Positions 1,518 through 29,231 of a DNA stretch of 64,000 bases are shown piece by piece. The translations under genes were made by a program, and so were the position numbers. Each line of letters starts with the position of its first letter. Position 1 is the stretch's first letter. The notes under the pieces were generated by a model. It worked only from the letters and a program-made list of their open reading frames with translations, was not told where the DNA came from and did not search any database. Origin of the DNA: Rhodobacteraceae bacterium (ex Bugula neritina AB1). GTDB taxonomy: Bacteria; Pseudomonadota; Alphaproteobacteria; Rhodobacterales; Rhodobacteraceae. The stretch spans positions 96,600 to 160,599 of the forward strand of contig MDLF01000085.1 in the NCBI GenBank assembly GCA_001730095.1, read 5' to 3'.

Positions 1518-2063
1518 TTACCCCCGCGCCGCGACAGCTTCCATCGCTGTTTTCAAATCATGCACAAGCGTTTTCGCCATTGAGCGGAACACCAGGATCT
1601 GAAGCGCCTGCGGGCCGGTCCTGGTGACCGAGGCCATCATGTGCTTCAGTTCGGTGCGCACGGTATACCTGCGCTTGAAAACCTGAGGCCGCAAATCCAC
1701 CGGCACCAGCCGCGCCAGCACGTCTTCGGCGCCATTGCCATCCAGCTTCACCACCGCCCAGGCATCGCTCTGATCGGTCAGCGCCGCATGTTTGCCCAGC
1801 TTGGCATCCGGCACCGGCCCCATCAGCAGCGCCATGTCCCGGCCAAACCAGACCGCGCGGCTGCCGGCCTTTCCGGTCGTCCGGTTCACAGCCGGAAAAG
1901 CCATGCCATGGGCGGATTCCAGCGCCTTGCTCAGCGCATCCTGCTGCTCTTTGAAGGGGGCAACGATCCACATATTGCCAGGCTGTTCCTCAGTCAGGCT
2001 CATTCCGCCGATAGTCACCGGCAGCAGCCCGTCGCAGGGGCTTTTTGCAGTCAGTTCAGCCAC
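1518..2063 (-). CDS. soxG: Sarcosine oxidase gamma subunit (SoxG)
   Basis: SoxG is the small gamma subunit of heterotetrameric sarcosine oxidase, which oxidatively demethylates sarcosine to glycine and passes the C1 unit to tetrahydrofolate. I chose the GTG at 2063 (VAELTAKSPC..., 181 residues). An AAGGAGG ribosome site lies just upstream, and the start overlaps the soxA stop by 8 bases, a common arrangement for coupled subunits. A longer ATG-started version (2126) would add 21 residues that are only the soxA tail read in another frame. The conserved middle (GMSLTEEQPGNMWIVAP and RAVWFGRDMALLMGP) fits the gamma family. Last gene of soxB-D-A-G. Confidence 0.9.
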   Translation of the reverse strand: MAELTAKSPCDGLLPVTIGGMSLTEEQPGNMWIVAPFKEQQDALSKALESAHGMAFPAVNRTTGKAGSRAVWFGRDMALLMGPVPDAKLGKHAALTDQSDAWAVVKLDGNGAEDVLARLVPVDLRPQVFKRRYTVRTELKHMMASVTRTGPQALQILVFRSMAKTLVHDLKTAMEAVAARG

Positions 2064-5001
2064 GGGCACGCCCTCCTTCAGGGTCAAAGAACACAGGTGA
2101 AACAACCTCGCACAGGGTGTCGACACCGCGCATATGATCGACCAGACGCACGGTTTCGCCGATGCGGTCCGGGCCTTCCTTCAGAAAGGCGAGGCCAATC
2201 GGATGACCCACAGTCGGTGAATAACCTGCCGAGGTCACATAGCCCTGGTCATAGATCCGCTCGACCGGGTCTCCGGGTGTGAACAGATGCGCACCGGCGG
2301 TGATTTCCTTGGCTGCGCCGACGGGTTTCAAACCCACCATGCGCATCCGGTCTTCGGCCATCAGGCCTTCGCGGGTAGACATCGCCTTGCCCAGAAAGGC
2401 CTTCTTCTTGGACATCATCCCCTGCAGACCAAGGTCAAAGGCGGTCACGGTGCCATTGATCTCGGCATGGGTAATCAACCCCTTCTCGATCCGCAGCACA
2501 TTGAGCGCCTCCATGCCATAGACGCCGCCGCCCATCGCTTCGGCCCGTTTCAGCAGTTCGCGGAACAAAGCGGCGCCAAAACGCGCAGGCACGGCAATCT
2601 CATAGGCATGCTCACCCGAGAAGGAGATCCGGAACAGCCGCCCCTTGACCCCCAGCACGGTCGCCTCGCCGCACCCCATAAAAGGCCAGGTCCCGCTGTT
2701 CACGTCCTCGTCCAAAAGACCGTTCAGCAGTTCCTGCGACTTCGGACCAGCCACAGCGAACTGCGCCCATTGCTCAGTCACCGAGGCAAAGCGCACGTCC
2801 CATTCCGGGTGCAGCACCTGAGAGACAAACTCCATATGCGCCATCACCTGTCCCGCCGCAGCGGTTGTGGTGGTCATCACAAAATGGGTCTCACCCAGCC
2901 GCGCGGTGGTGCCGTCATCCATGACAAAACCATCTTCGCGCAGCATCAGCCCATAGCGGACCTTGCCCACCTTCAGCGTGCTGAAGGTGTTGGTGTAGAG
3001 AAAGTCGAGGAACTTGCCCGCGTCGGCGCCCTGGATGTCGATCTTGCCCAGGGTGGAGACATCGCAGATGCCCACCGCATTGCGCACCAGCGTCACCTCG
3101 CGGTCGCAGGACTGGCGCCAATTGGTTTCACCCGGCTTGGGGTAATAGGCCGCACGGTACCACAGGCCCACCTCCAGCTGATGCGCTCCGCGGGTATCAC
3201 TCTCGCCATGCGAGGTCAGGAAGCGCTGCGGCTTCAAGCCCTCATCCACAGCCCCGGCGCCCATGGCGCCAATGGAAACCGGCACAAACGGCGGCCGGAA
3301 AGTAGTGGTGCCGGTTTCGGGAATGGTCCGACCTGTCGCATCTGCCAGCACCGCCAGTGCGGCAACGTTGGAGTTCTTGCCCTGATCCGTCGCCATGCCT
3401 TGGGTGGTGTAGCGCTTCATATGCTCGACCGAGCGGAAGTTCTCCACCGCCGCCTGTTTCACGTCCTTGACAGTCACGTCATTCTGGAAGTCAAGCCAGG
3501 CACGGCCTTTGCCCGGCACGGCCCACAGGGCGGCGATGCGGTAGGGATCATCCTCTGCATCCGGCAAATCAGCCGCAGCGGATTTCAGGCCCAGCGCCTC
3601 CACCACCTTGCCGGCAGCTTCAGCGCCTTCGCGCAGCGCGCCGGCAGTAGAGAAGGTGCCATTGCAGGCCCCAGCCGTGACCATCCCGGGCACGGCACCC
3701 TCAGCCGGAACAAAGGCCAGCGCCTCACGGTTCCATTGCGGGCGACTGTTCAGATGGCAGGTCAGATGCACAGAAGGGTTCCAGCCGCCGGACATTGCCA
3801 GACAGTCGGTCTGAACCTTCTCCTCGCCTTTTACTGAGCGCACAGTAATGCTCTCGATGCGCTGGCGGCCCGCACTGCCGCAAACCTGTGCTCCCTTGAT
3901 CACCTGATACGGGCCATCGACAGGCGCGTCATGGCGGCTGTCGATCACTGCGGCGATGTGAACACCGGCGTCATGCAGGTCGCGGGCGGTGCGGTGGGCC
4001 TGATCGTTGTTGGCAAACAGGGTCACCCGTTCACCCGGCGCTACTCCCCAGCGGTTCAGATAGGCACGCACCGCGCCCGCCATCATGATGCCGGGACGAT
4101 CATTGTTGCGGAACGCCACCGGACGCTCGATCGCGCCTGCTGCCAACACTGCATGCTTGGCCGCAATCCGCCAGAAGCATTCGCGCGGCAGATGGCTGCC
4201 CCGCAGCGAATGCCGCCGCGGCAGGTGGTGCGAGACCCGCTCCAGCGCGCCGTAGGTCCCCTGATCATAGGCACCGGTTACAGCAGTGCGGGTCATCAGC
4301 CGCACATTATCCATTGCCTCCAGCTCGGCCAGCACCTCAGCAGCCCATGCGTGGCCCGGCTTGCCGCCGATCTCCTCGCGTTCGGCCAGCAGGCGCCCCC
4401 CCATGCGGCTGTCCTCCTCCGCCAGGATCACATCCGCCCCGGCCCGGCCCGCAGTCAGCGCAGCCATCAGACCAGCAGGCCCGGAGCCGATCACCAGCAC
4501 GTCACAGAAGGCAAAGGCCTTCTCATAGGTGTCGCGGTCCGCCTCACCCGATAGCGCGCCCAGACCCGCAGCATTGCGGATCATCGGCTCATACAGCTTC
4601 TCCCAGAAGGCCGCAGGCCACATGAAGGTCTTGTAGTAGAACCCGGCGGTAAAGAACGGTGCCGCCAGATCGTTCACCGCCATCACGTCGCGCTCAACAG
4701 AGGGCCAGCAGTTCTGGCTGCGCGCTTCCAGCCCCTCGAACACCTCCTGCTGCGTGGCGCGGATGTTCGGGTCCTGCTCGCCCCCGGTGCCAATGGTCAC
4801 CAGCGCGTTTGGCTCCTCGCTGCCCGCCGTCAGCACCCCGCGCGGGCGGTGATACTTGAATGACCGCCCCATCAGATGCACATCATTTGCCAGCAGCGCC
4901 GAGGCCAGCGTGTCACCTTCCAGCCCCATCATGTGGCGGCCATTAAAGCCAAACGTGACCGGCTTAGCGCCCTGATTCAAACCTTTTCCGGGAAGCCTCA
5001 T
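2056..5001 (-). CDS. soxA: Sarcosine oxidase alpha subunit (SoxA)
   Basis: The largest subunit (981 residues, the usual length) binds NAD+ and tetrahydrofolate. The N-terminal 100 residues form the ferredoxin-like fold (FGFNGRHMMGLEGDTLASAL). A dinucleotide-binding pyridine-nucleotide oxidoreductase domain follows (VLVIGSGPAGLMAALTAGRAGA near residue 170). The C-terminal 370 residues are a GcvT-type aminomethyltransferase/folate domain (CDVSTLGKIDIQGADAGKFLD; SGEHAYEIAVPA), where the C1 unit from sarcosine becomes methylene-THF. The start overlaps the soxD stop by 4 bases (ATGA) and the stop overlaps soxG by 8 bases, so translation of the operon is coupled. Confidence 0.97.
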   Translation of the reverse strand: MRLPGKGLNQGAKPVTFGFNGRHMMGLEGDTLASALLANDVHLMGRSFKYHRPRGVLTAGSEEPNALVTIGTGGEQDPNIRATQQEVFEGLEARSQNCWPSVERDVMAVNDLAAPFFTAGFYYKTFMWPAAFWEKLYEPMIRNAAGLGALSGEADRDTYEKAFAFCDVLVIGSGPAGLMAALTAGRAGADVILAEEDSRMGGRLLAEREEIGGKPGHAWAAEVLAELEAMDNVRLMTRTAVTGAYDQGTYGALERVSHHLPRRHSLRGSHLPRECFWRIAAKHAVLAAGAIERPVAFRNNDRPGIMMAGAVRAYLNRWGVAPGERVTLFANNDQAHRTARDLHDAGVHIAAVIDSRHDAPVDGPYQVIKGAQVCGSAGRQRIESITVRSVKGEEKVQTDCLAMSGGWNPSVHLTCHLNSRPQWNREALAFVPAEGAVPGMVTAGACNGTFSTAGALREGAEAAGKVVEALGLKSAAADLPDAEDDPYRIAALWAVPGKGRAWLDFQNDVTVKDVKQAAVENFRSVEHMKRYTTQGMATDQGKNSNVAALAVLADATGRTIPETGTTTFRPPFVPVSIGAMGAGAVDEGLKPQRFLTSHGESDTRGAHQLEVGLWYRAAYYPKPGETNWRQSCDREVTLVRNAVGICDVSTLGKIDIQGADAGKFLDFLYTNTFSTLKVGKVRYGLMLREDGFVMDDGTTARLGETHFVMTTTTAAAGQVMAHMEFVSQVLHPEWDVRFASVTEQWAQFAVAGPKSQELLNGLLDEDVNSGTWPFMGCGEATVLGVKGRLFRISFSGEHAYEIAVPARFGAALFRELLKRAEAMGGGVYGMEALNVLRIEKGLITHAEINGTVTAFDLGLQGMMSKKKAFLGKAMSTREGLMAEDRMRMVGLKPVGAAKEITAGAHLFTPGDPVERIYDQGYVTSAGYSPTVGHPIGLAFLKEGPDRIGETVRLVDHMRGVDTLCEVVSPVFFDPEGGRARG

Positions 5002-22883: not shown

Positions 22884-23936
22884 TCAGGTGGCGGGGCCAC
22901 GCGCCGCAGCAGGGTACGGCCCCGCCATGCCCCGGTCTGCTGTGGCGTCCGCCTTTTCGATACCTTCACGGTAAAAGCAATGCTGAGCCCGGCCGGCCCG
23001 TTTGGCGGCATAGAGCGCCAGATCCGCCTGGTTCAGAAGCTTCTGTGCATCCGGGTCTTTTTCCCAGCTGGACAGCGTGGTCCCTGCACTGGCGGAAATC
23101 CGGCAGATCTGGCCGCCAAAGGGGATAGGCTCCTCCAACCGCTGGATGAGGCGATTCGCAATCGTTTCAAGCCTGCCGGTATCCATTACGCCTTCAAGGA
23201 TCATCACGAATTCATCGCCACCGACCCTGGCTACTGTGTCCGATTGGCGGGTGCATTCCACCATCAGCCGCGCGGCCTGCTGCAGCACCGCATCCCCTGC
23301 CGCATGCCCCAGAGTGTCATTGACCTGTTTGAAGAAATCCAGGTCCAGATGCATCAGCGCAAATTCACGGCCACTGGCAATCAGCCGCTCCAGCACATGA
23401 TCCATGGCACGGCGGTTCTTCAGGCCCGTCAAAGTATCAGTAAAGGCCTGCTCTTCTGCTGCAATCTTGGCCCCCTGCAAACGCAGGTTCAGCTGTCGCG
23501 AGGCTTCCATCGCAGCAGATTTTGCCTCTACAAGATACAGCATCTCAATCGTCAGATCGGTTGGAGAGAAATCTGCACTGGTCAAATCGTAATCGCGCAC
23601 CGCCTCCAGCACGGAAATCCCAAACGACAGGTTTACAAAAACCCCTTGCCCATCCGGCAATGGCGTGCACCCCCCCTTGAGCCCGGTTTGCGGCGCGTCC
23701 CGAAACTGCAGATGCAGCTTGCTGCCTGCAAAACGTGCCAGATCCTCCACCGAACGTACTGAGCGCGGCCGGGACAGGTCGAATACCCTGAAAAACCGGC
23801 GCCCTTCCCAGTTCAGCTGAGGGCGCAGTTTTTTGAGGGTCGGGCCTGCGGAAACAATTCTCCCGTGGTTGTCGACGATGACAAACATCGGGCAAATAAC
23901 ATTCGCCATGCCGGTCAGCTGCTCGAATGTCATCAT
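22884..23936 (-). CDS. HNOBA-GGDEF diguanylate cyclase (H-NOX partner)
   Basis: This 350-residue protein probably makes cyclic di-GMP. Residues 1-160 match the HNOBA domain found in soluble guanylate cyclases and H-NOX partners (VICPMFVIVDNHGRIVSAGPTL; FSPTDLTIEMLYLVEAKSAAME, leading into a helical linker). The GGDEF domain follows, with LTGLKNRRAMD, the active site RVGGDEF, and an intact inhibitory I-site RQSD five residues before it. Its start overlaps the stop of the H-NOX gene by 4 bases (ATGA), so the two proteins are translationally coupled and very likely interact. No EAL domain is present. Confidence 0.93.
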   Translation of the reverse strand: MMTFEQLTGMANVICPMFVIVDNHGRIVSAGPTLKKLRPQLNWEGRRFFRVFDLSRPRSVRSVEDLARFAGSKLHLQFRDAPQTGLKGGCTPLPDGQGVFVNLSFGISVLEAVRDYDLTSADFSPTDLTIEMLYLVEAKSAAMEASRQLNLRLQGAKIAAEEQAFTDTLTGLKNRRAMDHVLERLIASGREFALMHLDLDFFKQVNDTLGHAAGDAVLQQAARLMVECTRQSDTVARVGGDEFVMILEGVMDTGRLETIANRLIQRLEEPIPFGGQICRISASAGTTLSSWEKDPDAQKLLNQADLALYAAKRAGRAQHCFYREGIEKADATADRGMAGPYPAAARGPAT

Positions 23937-24520
23937 AGCGAATGTGCCCCCAGATCGAATTCCCGCCCGGCAGCGAATTCCGTTTCCACCAAGGTGATCG
24001 AAATCCTCTCGGCACCGTCGTGGGTGCCGCTATGGTTCAAAAACACCAGATCACCATAGTCATCCGCCATGGCCCTCAAAACCCCCATCAGAACATGCGC
24101 ATACCCTGGCAGCCCCTGCTGGCAGACAAGTTCGAACTGGTCCGGGGCCTGCTCCAGCAGCTCCAGTCCAGGAAGGTGCAGGTCCGAAACCGCCAGCCGT
24201 GCCCGGTCCGACAGATCATCCAATGAGTGCAGGAATTCCACATACGTTACGCCGCCAAAGCGCAACAGCCGCCGCAACGCCTCGACTTGCGGATTGGACA
24301 CAAGGAATGTCCCCATGTCCTCAAGCATTTCCGGCAGCGGGCGCGCCAGAACCTTTTCCATCGCCGCCAACATCCGGCCAGATTGCTCTTCGGTGTAATA
24401 CAGCATGGCTTCGAACTCGGCGAACCCGAGCTCAGCCTCTTCCATGACCTCTTCCCAGCGGTCAGCCCCGTAGGTACTCGTCACAAAAGCCTGAATCGCC
24501 TTATTGATCAGACCGTGCAT
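23933..24520 (-). CDS. H-NOX (haem-NO-binding fold) protein with altered haem-ligand positions
   Basis: This 195-residue protein has the family N-terminus MHGLINKAIQAFVTSTYG and the core LEDMGTFLVSNPQVEALRRLLRFGG and FLHSLDDLSDRARLAVSDLHLP. H-NOX proteins bind haem and sense NO or O2 through a proximal His and a Tyr-x-Ser-x-Arg motif. Here the proximal-His position appears to be Ser104 (LDDLS where characterised proteins have D-E-V-H), and the Y/S/R positions read Leu131, Cys133 and Gln135. The fold is likely kept but classical haem binding is doubtful. ATG at 24520, after GAGGGG; upstream codons to 24547 are rejected. It is coupled to the cyclase. Confidence 0.88.
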   Translation of the reverse strand: MHGLINKAIQAFVTSTYGADRWEEVMEEAELGFAEFEAMLYYTEEQSGRMLAAMEKVLARPLPEMLEDMGTFLVSNPQVEALRRLLRFGGVTYVEFLHSLDDLSDRARLAVSDLHLPGLELLEQAPDQFELVCQQGLPGYAHVLMGVLRAMADDYGDLVFLNHSGTHDGAERISITLVETEFAAGREFDLGAHSL

Positions 24521-24900: not shown

Positions 24901-26460
24901 TCAGAAGTCAGTGGGCGCCCCGCCCTCTGCCTTTCGGCGTGCGACGAAATCCGCCAGCTCCTCCCGAACCGCGACATCCATGGGCGGCTCTTCGAAATCG
25001 GCAATAATATCCTTGAACACCTTGTGGGCGCGTTCTGCAGTCCAGGTGGCACCTGCGGCTTCCCAGGCCTCGAAATTGCGCCAATCACTGAGGAAAGGCT
25101 GATAAAACGCCGATGTGTAGCGGTCCTGCGTGTGCTGGATACCGAAGAAATGGCCGTCGTTGCCGACTTCGCGGATCGCATCCAGTGCAATTTCATCCGG
25201 GCCGGTGGCATTGACCGACGGGTCCATATAACGCTGAATCATCTGCAGGATCTCGCAGTCCATGATGAACTTCTCGGGGCTGGCAATCAGCCCACCTTCC
25301 AGCCAACCGGCCGCATGGTAGATCATGTTGCTGCCCGACTGCACCGCAGACCACAGCGAATTGGAGGTCTCCCACATTGCCTGCCCGTCCGGAACATTGG
25401 CCGCGCAGACGCCAGACGCCCGCATTGGCAGCCCGTAGAACCGCGCCATTTGCCCCGTCATCTGGGTCGAACGCATGTATTCCGGGGTGCCAAAAGCAGG
25501 CGCACCGGATTTCATGTCCACGTTTGATGTGAACGTGCCGATCGCCACCGGGCACCCCGGCGCCACATACTGGAACAGTGCAATCGCACAAAGGGATTCC
25601 GCAATGGATTGCGCCACCGCCCCGGCCATTGTCACCGGTGCCATAGCACCCGCGAGCGTGAACGGTGTCACCACCACCCCCTGGCCGCGGCGGCACAGCC
25701 GCAGTGATCCGTCAATCATCGGTTCGTCATGCTTCAGCGGCGACGTGGAGTTTATGTTGGTGTACATGCGCGGTGTCGCATCGAATTCTTCATGGCTGTG
25801 ACCGCCCGCGATGCGGACCATCTCCATAACGTCCTCGACCCGCTCCTTGCCCAGAGAATAGGCATGCATCGCCTTGTCGGTAATCGTCAGCTTGTCAAAA
25901 AGCACATCCAGATGCCGTACCGAGGCATGAACATCCACCGGCTCCACCGGATAGCCGCCGGCGAAATGGATGCAGTTGAAATACTGCGTCAGCTTCAACA
26001 GATTGCGGCACTGCTCGCGGGTGCCAGCGGTCTTCTTGTTCTGCTCCAGGTCCCAGTAGTTAGGGGGCGAGGAGACATTGCCGAACAGCATGACGTCGCC
26101 GCCCACTGTGATCTTGCGCTCTGGGTTGCGCGGGGTGAGCGTCCATTCCCGCGGCGCCTTGGCCACCATTTCCATCACGAAATCCCGGTCCATCCGAACC
26201 AGGTCGCCTTCGACCTTGACGCCGGCCTGCCGGAAAATCGCCAGCGCCTCCTCGTTGTAGAACTGGATGCCGATATCCTCCAGGATCCGCATGGCGCCTT
26301 CGTGGATCGCCTGCACGCCCTCTTCGGTCAGCGGTTCTGTCGGGCGATCGATGTTCCTGGGCGGGTTCCAGGGCATCTGCTCCAGAACTGCACTGCCGCG
26401 CCGCGCCGCTGCGCCGGCCCGGCCTCCGCCTCTGCGTTTGCGTGCGCTTGTTTCTGCCAT
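24901..26460 (-). CDS. Trimethylamine methyltransferase (MttB) family protein, non-pyrrolysine
   Basis: The 519-residue protein belongs to the MttB superfamily, corrinoid-dependent methyltransferases that demethylate quaternary or tertiary amines. Visible family regions include GIQFYNEEALAIFRQAGVKVEG, NYWDLEQNKKTAGTREQC, the TIM-barrel core (PFTLAGAMAPVTMAGAVAQSIAE, VAIGTFTSNVDMKSGAPAFGTPE), and EVGNDGHFFGIQHT near the C-terminus. There is no in-frame amber codon, so it is a non-pyrrolysine member like the glycine betaine methyltransferases. The N-terminal 25 residues are Arg/Ala-rich and disordered. No corrinoid protein or reactivase lies beside it. Substrate not determined; a betaine or dimethylglycine-type substrate is plausible given the carnitine and sarcosine genes in this window. 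Confidence 0.88.
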   Translation of the reverse strand: MAETSARKRRGGGRAGAAARRGSAVLEQMPWNPPRNIDRPTEPLTEEGVQAIHEGAMRILEDIGIQFYNEEALAIFRQAGVKVEGDLVRMDRDFVMEMVAKAPREWTLTPRNPERKITVGGDVMLFGNVSSPPNYWDLEQNKKTAGTREQCRNLLKLTQYFNCIHFAGGYPVEPVDVHASVRHLDVLFDKLTITDKAMHAYSLGKERVEDVMEMVRIAGGHSHEEFDATPRMYTNINSTSPLKHDEPMIDGSLRLCRRGQGVVVTPFTLAGAMAPVTMAGAVAQSIAESLCAIALFQYVAPGCPVAIGTFTSNVDMKSGAPAFGTPEYMRSTQMTGQMARFYGLPMRASGVCAANVPDGQAMWETSNSLWSAVQSGSNMIYHAAGWLEGGLIASPEKFIMDCEILQMIQRYMDPSVNATGPDEIALDAIREVGNDGHFFGIQHTQDRYTSAFYQPFLSDWRNFEAWEAAGATWTAERAHKVFKDIIADFEEPPMDVAVREELADFVARRKAEGGAPTDF

Positions 26461-27736: not shown

Positions 27737-27842
27737 ACTCCTGCCGTCTTGCGGCCAATTTAGTAAAAATCCGAAAGGGTTTCTTAACCAGTCTCAGCAA
27801 AATTGGAAGACATAGGATTTGCAAGGGGCGAAAGGATACCGC

Positions 27843-29231
27843 GTGCAAGGCACTATCCTGGTCATCGACGGCGTCTCCACCAACCGCATCATGCTGAAGG
27901 TGCAGCTTACGGCCGCCTATTACGATACCGTTCAGGCAGGCAGCGTCGCTGAGGTCCTGTCCACTGCACGTCAATGCCGCCCCGATCTGGTTCTGACCGC
28001 GATGTCGCTGCCAGACGGCAGCGCCGCCGATGTCAAACGCGCACTGGCCGGGGATGAAACACTGTCCGACCTGCCGGTGATCGCGGTTGCCGACTGGGAA
28101 GGACACAAGGCGCGGCTGCAGGCTCTTGCCGCAGGGATCGACGACGTGCTGCGGCAGCCGGTGGACGATGTGATCCTGCAGGCGCGCATCCGCAGCCTGC
28201 TGCGGGCCCGCAGCGCCAATGAGGAACTGAACCTGCAGCGCGACGCCTCACATGGTTTCATCCTGCCGCTGTGCGACCGTGCCCGCACCGAGGATCTACG
28301 CGACGCCACGGTTGCACTGGTTGCAGACGACCTACACTCCGCTATGGCCTGGCGCGACCGCCTGTCCGGCCACCTGCCCTACGCGCTTCGCACCCATGCC
28401 ATCAGCGACATCCAGGGGCTGATGCAAGCGCCGGCGGCCGATGCTATCGTCATTGAGCTGAATGAGGCCTCAGCCGGTCCGGGCCTGCGCCTGCTGGCCG
28501 ATCTGCGCGCCCGTGCCGCCACCCGTCAGTCAGTGGTGATCGCCGTGCCTACCCCCGCTGACCCCAATATCGCGGCAGAGGCTTTGGATCGTGGCGCGCA
28601 TGACGTTCTCCAAACCGGCTTCGATGTCGAGGAACTGGGCCTGCGCCTGAACACACAGCTGCAGCAAAAGGCCCGCAACGACCTGATGCGTGTCAGTGTT
28701 CGCAACGGGCTGCGCGCAGCCAATTTGGACCCGATGACCGGGCTGTACAACCGCCGCTATGCCAAGCCTTTCCTGGACCGGGTGGCGCATTCCTCTGCCG
28801 AATCCGGTGAAAAATTCGCCGTCATGCTGGCGGACCTCGACCATTTCAAGCGGATCAATGATGTCTACGGCCACCCGGCCGGCGACGCGGTGCTGATCGA
28901 GGCCGCCCGCCGCATGCAGGCCGTGCTGCAGCCTTCGGACCTGCTGGCGCGCGTCGGCGGCGAAGAATTCATGGCCGTCCTGCCCGGCGCCACCGAAGCC
29001 GAAGCCGGCCTGGCCGCGATCGCCCTTTGCAACGCCATCAACTGCACGCCGTTCCAAGTTCCCGGCGCAGCTGAACCCGTCAAGGTGACGATCAGCATCG
29101 GAGCAGTCATGGGCGGTCAGGACCGCAGCACCGCAGCGCTGGTCAACAAGGCCGATCAGGCGCTGTACGACGCCAAGAACGCCGGCCGCAACCAGGTGAC
29201 GTTACCCAAAGAATGCACCGAAGCGGCCTGA
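27843..29231 (+). CDS. PleD-like protein: two degenerate receiver domains plus GGDEF
   Basis: This 462-residue protein has the REC-REC-GGDEF order of PleD, the cell-cycle diguanylate cyclase. I use the GTG at 27843, which follows AAAGGA and gives the PleD-like N-terminus VQGTILVIDG. The GGDEF domain begins near DPMTGLYNRRYAKPFL, with active site RVGGEEF. In the first receiver the acidic pair reads IDG, the phospho-acceptor position is Thr (DLVLTAMSLPD) and the conserved Lys is Arg (VLRQP). The second receiver has Glu in place of Asp (AIVIELN). The I-site position reads QPSD rather than RxxD. It is divergent from the DUF3572 gene. Probably an active cyclase with altered control. Confidence 0.88.
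   Translation: MQGTILVIDGVSTNRIMLKVQLTAAYYDTVQAGSVAEVLSTARQCRPDLVLTAMSLPDGSAADVKRALAGDETLSDLPVIAVADWEGHKARLQALAAGIDDVLRQPVDDVILQARIRSLLRARSANEELNLQRDASHGFILPLCDRARTEDLRDATVALVADDLHSAMAWRDRLSGHLPYALRTHAISDIQGLMQAPAADAIVIELNEASAGPGLRLLADLRARAATRQSVVIAVPTPADPNIAAEALDRGAHDVLQTGFDVEELGLRLNTQLQQKARNDLMRVSVRNGLRAANLDPMTGLYNRRYAKPFLDRVAHSSAESGEKFAVMLADLDHFKRINDVYGHPAGDAVLIEAARRMQAVLQPSDLLARVGGEEFMAVLPGATEAEAGLAAIALCNAINCTPFQVPGAAEPVKVTISIGAVMGGQDRSTAALVNKADQALYDAKNAGRNQVTLPKECTEAA

Follow-up and report, generated by a model that had tools for sequence, protein, structure and literature searches.

The hnox gene of a Leisingera strain, Rhodobacteraceae bacterium (ex Bugula neritina AB1), encodes a protein that has the H-NOX fold and has lost the residues that hold haem in canonical members. 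It belongs to a single clade of such proteins, is under purifying selection, and is paired almost constantly across that clade with an enzyme carrying an intact GGDEF motif; these points are observed directly. On balance, the sequence comparisons favour a regulatory partner of the adjoining diguanylate cyclase that is free of a haem ligand and most likely acts without NO. The gene lies in a 64,000-nucleotide stretch of contig MDLF01000085.1 that was analysed as a whole and is here called the window. The core of the finding, loss of the proximal His in an H-NOX paired with a cyclase, is already known in print (Kumar & Spiro 2017; Lee-Lopez & Yukl 2022).

The H-NOX Protein and Its Haem Site

The hnox reading frame (24520–23933, minus strand) is intact and encodes a 195-residue protein of the group that we call class B, which matches the published 'Group 5' (discussed below). 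The list of open reading frames also offers a longer GTG start, which is less likely than the ATG at 24520; we prefer the latter because the Met-His-Gly beginning is conserved. The HNOB profile (PF07700) matches residues 2–157 with an E-value of 1e-21 and a score of 78 bits, against a curated cut-off of 25.5. An AlphaFold2 model (78 sequences; mean pLDDT 88.8) has its best PDB matches in Nostoc H-NOX, the top hit having a TM-score of 0.79 by query length and 0.85 by target length; sGC beta-1 provides the next closest structures, and the Foldseek matches to the sGC alpha subunit (9oxn_A and 8hbe_A) are weak (TM 0.44). A profile score above the curated cut-off together with the matching fold places the protein in the H-NOX/HNOB fold, as the initial annotation of this DNA had claimed. 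A profile search found no second HNOB gene in the window genome.

Phmmer against the PDB aligned the protein to Nostoc H-NOX with an E-value of 6e-17 and a single one-residue gap, near position 36. In both the pairwise and the MAFFT alignments, the column of Nostoc His105, the proximal ligand, is occupied by Ser104 (codon TCG; 24209–24211, minus strand), as had been annotated; in the remaining 20 genus genomes the codon is CCG or CCC (Pro). In the same alignments, the columns of Nostoc Tyr134, Ser136, and Arg138, which make up the YxSxR haem-propionate motif, hold Cys133, Gln135, and Leu137 (codons 133–137, Cys-Gln-Gln-Gly-Leu; 24110–24124, minus strand). The initial annotation was right that this motif is lost, but it had read the columns as Leu131, Cys133, and Gln135, off by two. 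It had also held that another His at the proximal site, together with an equivalent of YxSxR, would speak against the loss of haem; by alignment there is neither, the histidines of the protein lying at positions 2, 98, 115, 142, 163, 167, and 193, outside the proximal column. The protein therefore has neither the proximal His (Ser104) nor the YxSxR motif (Cys133-x-Gln135-x-Leu137) of a haem-binding H-NOX sensor, and the absence of the former makes haem binding unlikely, as judged from the alignments. Cys133 is its sole Cys, and the three-Cys zinc motif of the Vibrio cholerae type is absent.

The Adjoining Cyclase and Gene Neighbourhood

Adjoining hnox on the same strand is a gene for a 350-residue diguanylate cyclase of the Dgc1/DgcA type (22884–23936, minus strand), assigned by HNOBA and GGDEF profile matches and a structural model; the two genes share 4 bases (ATGA) where its start meets the hnox stop. 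The GGDEF domain has an intact GGDEF motif. The HNOBA match, at residues 10–66, is weak and just above cut-off; of 64 near-relative cyclases in an alignment, 63 have HNOBA. The model contains a mixed alpha/beta N-terminal domain, a long helix (residues 128–164), and the GGDEF domain. In the PDB it best matches PAS-GGDEF-EAL and other GGDEF enzymes, although these superpose badly over the full length (rmsd above 20 for the leading hits). The N-terminal domain may be PAS-like. In soluble guanylate cyclase the order of parts is H-NOX, HNOBA, long helix, and cyclase; the window has the same parts in the same order, but divided between two genes.

The linkage to a diguanylate cyclase that was first noticed in the window extends across the clade. 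Among the matches listed, 124 of the 125 class B loci have a cyclase gene next to hnox on the same strand, and the one that does not is truncated by its contig end; 123 of the 124 linked cyclases have an intact GGDEF motif.

Upstream of hnox and on the same strand, a profile match identifies a gene of the MTTB family (trimethylamine methyltransferase-like; 24901–26460, minus strand), beyond which are HAD and DUF3572 genes. MTTB genes occur near hnox in 66 of 80 near loci (best 80 of 571, 2.5 kb flanks) and in 40 of 100 family loci (2 kb flanks); as a frequent neighbour, the MTTB gene is a candidate associate only. A PleD-like receiver-GGDEF gene lies on the opposite strand (27819–29231, plus strand), about 3.3 kb from the hnox start, and is perhaps a second diguanylate cyclase, the counterpart of Dgc2/DgcB. 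A search of the window genome for NosP/FIST, as a substitute NO sensor, gave no match. The genome encodes a copper nitrite reductase, scoring well above cut-off, and the organism therefore probably produces NO.

Distribution of the Residue Losses

Every one of the 21 genus genomes has HNOB, as do 181 of the 248 that were sampled from the family. The 151 loci that we aligned comprise 125 of class B, including the window, and 26 of class A. The class B loci are the better-scoring part of the matches, from whose listing 30 loci and 100 further places were taken. Among these listed matches, the proximal residue is Pro in 92 of the 125, His in 11, Ala, Arg, and Gln in 4 each, Ser and Asn in 3 each, Thr in 2, and Asp and Lys in 1 each, and YxSxR is kept in none. 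The suggestion that the protein is a lineage-wide variant of Rhodobacteraceae is thus borne out, 114 of the 125 class B loci among the matches listed being without His.

A wider tally covered 207 distinct proteins including the canonical L263, removal of which leaves 206 distinct class B proteins. Their proximal residues are Pro (153), Ser (18), His (11), Ala (8), Gln (4), Arg (4), Asn (3), Thr (2), Asp (2), and Lys (1), and the Tyr and Ser of YxSxR occur together in none of the 206. The nearest named loci (best 80 of 571) include no His; they have Pro in 62, Ser in 13, Ala in 3, and Thr and Asp in 1 each, and the four Phaeobacter records and one Ruegeria pomeroyi record within this set all have Pro. 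An extra sample of 30 hand-chosen genomes, mostly weaker matches, yielded 22 usable class B rows, two of them with His. The exact residue set of the window, Ser/Leu/Cys/Gln, had been thought possibly conserved, and it is not: among the 21 genus genomes, Ser104 and Gln135 occur only in the window genome, and the other 20 have Pro104 and Pro135.

Class A (L022–L046 and L053) is a second, canonical H-NOX class in Rhodobacteraceae. All 26 loci keep His and YxSxR, except for Gln in place of His in L046 and His in place of Ser in L053. The class A neighbours are hybrid histidine kinases in all three cases examined, and one class A locus has a same-strand cyclase match. Some genomes, such as G076, G117, G230, and G250, have one H-NOX of each class.

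Two further observations concern individual loci. L288, a class B locus of genus g24, has Gly at the proximal site and Glu, Asp, and Val in the YxSxR columns; the same genus also has a His-keeper, L282, and represents a fast-evolving corner of class B. L161 (JAHVJD010000007.1) is titled Nocardioides marinus, a title that is probably wrong, as its protein is 86% identical to that of the window.

Phylogeny and Probable Order of Losses

Class B forms a single clade, with an SH-aLRT of 99 in a tree of 125 rows and bootstrap/SH-aLRT values of 100/100 in a tree of 62 rows whose bootstrap had not settled. The latter includes 44 of the 151 earlier loci, which were hand-chosen and contain all 11 earlier His-keepers, so that it is enriched in His; it omits L275, L278, L286, L294, and L297, which are fragments, split, or partial. 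The nearest canonical relatives of class B are L263 and L293, from the same family, in which His and YxSxR are present; support for this placement is moderate (88/62). In L263, the canonical H-NOX (1483–2046) is partnered by an HNOBA-GGDEF-EAL enzyme (1986–3503). L293 also has a cyclase match, and L295 and L296 have one nearby (102–103 bits). A class-level search of 337 genomes, at least five of them from the window's family, found four matches outside the family, all canonical by motif and three of the four with a cyclase match.

The His-retaining rows are scattered within class B, with at least 8 changes between His and other residues in the first tree and 10 in a later tree with more rows, counts that rest on trees with many weak inner branches; the later tree omits nineteen near-identical Leisingera rows. 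The most parsimonious order has YxSxR lost on the stem and His lost repeatedly thereafter, with regains possible. The Ser of the window is nested in a well-supported Pro clade and reflects a CCG to TCG change.

Dinoroseobacter shibae is represented by L114, whose 8-kb genome piece matches the DFL 12 plasmid NC_009955 at 100%. L114 lies in the class B clade, which places the window protein in the clade of D. shibae Hnox-Dgc1. The D. shibae pair (Dshi_2815 and Dgc1) shares with that of the window its clade, its gene arrangement, and the loss of YxSxR, but D. shibae H-NOX has retained its proximal His, with Trp in the Ser column. It is catalogued among the sensors that detect NO through haem, and its NO-bound form is reported to inhibit Dgc1 (PMC8846402; PMC7232146), which indicates that NO sensing was not lost on the class B stem. 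For haem, it appears to be enough in this clade that the His is kept, even where YxSxR is gone.

Trp or His occurs at column 136 in 10 of 13 His-keepers vs 8 of 115 others (Fisher p 4.6e-8, uncorrected for relatedness and with the grouping of Trp and His chosen after inspection of the table), and Trp136 is the strongest single-residue association with His105 in a scan of columns 90–155. A tree-based sign test of the two columns was not significant, with only 4 independent pairs on well-supported branches; we regard the association as suggestive. We saw no sign of a link between His retention and NO production: of 13 genomes with a His-keeper, 2 encode a copper nitrite reductase that scores above cut-off, as do 8 of 56 His-less ones.

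Selection and Conservation

The hnox gene is under purifying selection, with a median dN/dS of 0.043 within the genus (208 of 210 pairs, the other two falling outside the chosen dS range). In His-less class B proteins, the most conserved positions are the hinge-Gly columns, the Pro117 column, and those around residues 83–90 and 148–158, and the former haem-site columns rank 98–163 of 195. Neither the two hinge-Gly columns nor that of Pro117 vary among the 206 class B proteins; we take these residues to be the hinge Gly and haem-facing Pro of the window protein. The principle behind this assignment is described in PMC7108781. The scaffold and, probably, the hinge are kept while haem-contact residues vary, save for a preference for Pro at position 104. 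Pro occupies the former His column in 78% of His-less members, a dominance that points to preference there and not pure relaxation.

Proposed Mechanism

The starting point was probably a canonical haem H-NOX working with an HNOBA-GGDEF(-EAL) cyclase. According to the parsimony order, YxSxR would have been lost on the stem of the Rhodobacteraceae clade while His stayed for a time; most lineages would then have given up the His as well, usually for Pro and in the window for Ser. Lacking the Fe-His tether and, we presume, haem, the proximal helix would be expected to lie near the 'His-released' state that NO binding makes in ordinary H-NOX. Among the structure matches is the Shewanella H103G structure (2kil), which has reportedly been put forward as a mimic of the NO-bound form. 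When NO binds canonical H-NOX, the proximal His is displaced, helix F shifts position, and the subdomains rotate about two Gly hinges (PMC7108781). By contact with the HNOBA domain of the cyclase, the His-less protein would keep the enzyme in the same state as an NO-bound H-NOX does, which in D. shibae is reported to be an inhibited one. It would then act on the cyclase most likely without NO, as a standing restraint on c-di-GMP synthesis, and any modulation may come from partner binding, expression, or another ligand.

Published work on Paracoccus denitrificans bears on this proposal from both sides. As described by Kumar & Spiro 2017 (PMC5588039, citing earlier papers), the H-NOX of P. denitrificans lacks His, as in Rhodobacter sphaeroides; an hnoX mutant forms less biofilm and a dgcAB mutant more, and the authors suggest that DgcA is inhibited by H-NOX. 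They still propose that NO acts via the His-less H-NOX, in addition to an H-NOX-independent NO route. As the researchers working on P. denitrificans are reported to have been unable to detect c-di-GMP (PMC12582929), inhibition of the cyclase is unproven there. We count in favour of our reading these mutant phenotypes, which fit inhibition of the cyclase by H-NOX, together with the fold, the residue losses, the purifying selection, the near-constant pairing with a GGDEF enzyme, the HNOBA of the linked cyclases, the cyclase-linked nearest canonical relative (support 88/62), the conserved hinge Gly and Pro117, and the middling-to-poor conservation of the haem-site columns. We count against it the NO sensing of D. 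shibae, the NO model of Kumar & Spiro, the preference for Pro, and the copper nitrite reductase.

More tentatively, we suggest a scenario for the whole of Rhodobacteraceae, a major family of marine bacteria; we give this scenario not quite even prospects. A haem-based NO sensor may have been converted into a haem-independent cyclase subunit, first by loss of YxSxR, after which His was either kept, in most cases accompanied by Trp or His where the Ser had been, as a second haem-holding arrangement like that of D. shibae, or lost to Pro, Ser, or other residues together with NO sensing. If this is true, the NO-responsive D. shibae member is not representative of most orthologues.

Alternative Explanations

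Haem might still be bound through another residue, such as His98, His115, or Cys133, or by the pocket alone, so that the protein would remain an NO sensor with unusual coordination. This is unlikely. In its favour, the D. shibae member of the clade is listed as binding haem and NO despite the loss of YxSxR, the His98 and His2 columns hold His in 161 and 196 of the 207 tallied proteins, respectively, and the hinge glycines and Pro117 column do not vary. However, the D. shibae protein keeps its proximal His, and the haem-site columns of class B are at best of middling conservation. His98 precedes the proximal site by six residues and, from helix geometry, would not be on the same face; it is also found in 7 of 12 His-keepers (with the canonical L263 counted) and is therefore not a replacement. 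We reject it as a substitute proximal ligand on this ground.

That the emptied pocket binds a different small molecule which regulates the cyclase seems to us improbable. In the list of Nostoc haem-pocket-lining columns that we assume here, the Trp74 column is Leu in about 100% of His-less class B proteins and the Met144 column is Val in 88%, and the purifying selection on hnox is compatible with a ligand-binding role. The same Leu and Val prevail in His-retaining members, however, and so are not tied to the loss of His, and this explanation comes without a candidate ligand.

A thiol, redox, or S-nitrosation sensor based on Cys133, the redox form of which was raised in the initial annotation, has a similarly small or slightly smaller chance. 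In its favour, Cys133 is the only Cys of the protein and is matched by Cys in 80 of 80 of the nearest named loci (best 80 of 571), and the haem-free H-NOX of V. cholerae is activated by Cys oxidation (PMC7108781). The V. cholerae mechanism, however, uses a three-Cys zinc site (PMC12329717) that is absent here, and the authors of the Group 5 analysis describe that group as being without a conserved Cys (PMC8738867). Across the clade, the column is Cys in 155 of 207 tallied proteins, about one quarter of class B having another residue, and 8 of the 206 class B proteins are entirely without Cys; this weakens the idea as a general mechanism, and we reject Cys133 as a general redox switch of the clade.

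Decay to a gene without function, to which the lost ligand residues and a few damaged or split matches (one in-frame TAA in L277, a match in two pieces in G056) might point, is very improbable given the low dN/dS, the pairing with a cyclase in 124 of 125 loci among the matches listed, the phenotypes of the P. denitrificans hnoX mutant (PMC5588039), and the CtrA-dependent expression of hnox and a dgc gene in Phaeobacter inhibens (PMC12363192).

In the last of these studies, CtrA-pathway mutants, whether of P. inhibens or of D. shibae, expressed hnox and one dgc gene at lower levels (PMC12363192). CtrA-like sites (TTAA-N7-TTAA, at most one mismatch) occur upstream of hnox in 24 of 125 class B loci among the matches listed, vs 4.7 in single-base shuffles, at about -50 to -63. 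They are found in 13 of 26 class A upstream regions (1.75 expected), so that we reject the site as a mark of class B. In 79 near relatives there are 7 vs 4.5 expected, with no clear excess, and the upstream regions of the window gene and of D. shibae hnox have no such site.

Relation to Known Systems

Group 5 of Lee-Lopez & Yukl 2022 (PMC8738867) is described as having His in fewer than 10% of its members and mostly Pro, and the neighbour families in its figure legend include GGDEF, MTTB, and HAD. The window genes agree with this description in having a non-His proximal residue (Ser in the window genome and Pro in the remaining 20 of the 21 genus genomes) and GGDEF and MTTB neighbours. Group 5, including P. 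denitrificans Pden_3719/DgcA, shares with the window the H-NOX fold, the missing His, and an adjoining or overlapping GGDEF gene, but it has mostly Pro where the window protein has Ser. The Group 5 section of that paper presents a similarity network, without a tree, an order of losses, or detail on His-keepers beyond 'fewer than 10%'.

Canonical H-NOX proteins linked to GGDEF-EAL enzymes, such as L263 and that of Shewanella woodyi SwDGC (PMC8846402), resemble the window pair in fold, in having a c-di-GMP enzyme as partner, and, for L263, in the presence of HNOBA. They differ in that L263 has His and YxSxR and the partner adds an EAL domain. The alpha subunit of soluble guanylate cyclase has an H-NOX-like domain that is haem-less and serves a nucleotide cyclase, in one chain beside the haem-bearing beta subunit. 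The window protein is alike in being, as predicted, a haem-less H-NOX-fold domain serving a cyclase; it differs from the alpha subunit, which works beside a haem-bearing partner. The redox switch of V. cholerae H-NOX (PMC7108781) is another case of an H-NOX able to signal without haem, but it is one of a set of sequences in which the proximal His is always kept, and it relies on a Cys zinc site, whereas the window protein has one Cys.

In the literature within our reach, which excludes most subscription journals, we found no account of class B as one clade nearest to canonical cyclase-linked H-NOX, of YxSxR being lost before His, or of D. shibae H-NOX as a rare His-keeper; such absence is weak evidence of novelty. 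In the literature, genes of this type are handled as NO-sensing hnox genes, and the result from D. shibae has been carried over to homologues, for example that of Rhodobacter capsulatus (PMC7232146). About nine in ten of the sampled members, among the matches listed, are without the iron ligand, and NO control of c-di-GMP through hnox should therefore not be assumed in most Rhodobacteraceae. The clade also holds natural intermediates in which His is kept and YxSxR lost, and its close orthologues allow a comparison that bears on the sensing question of the 2022 review.
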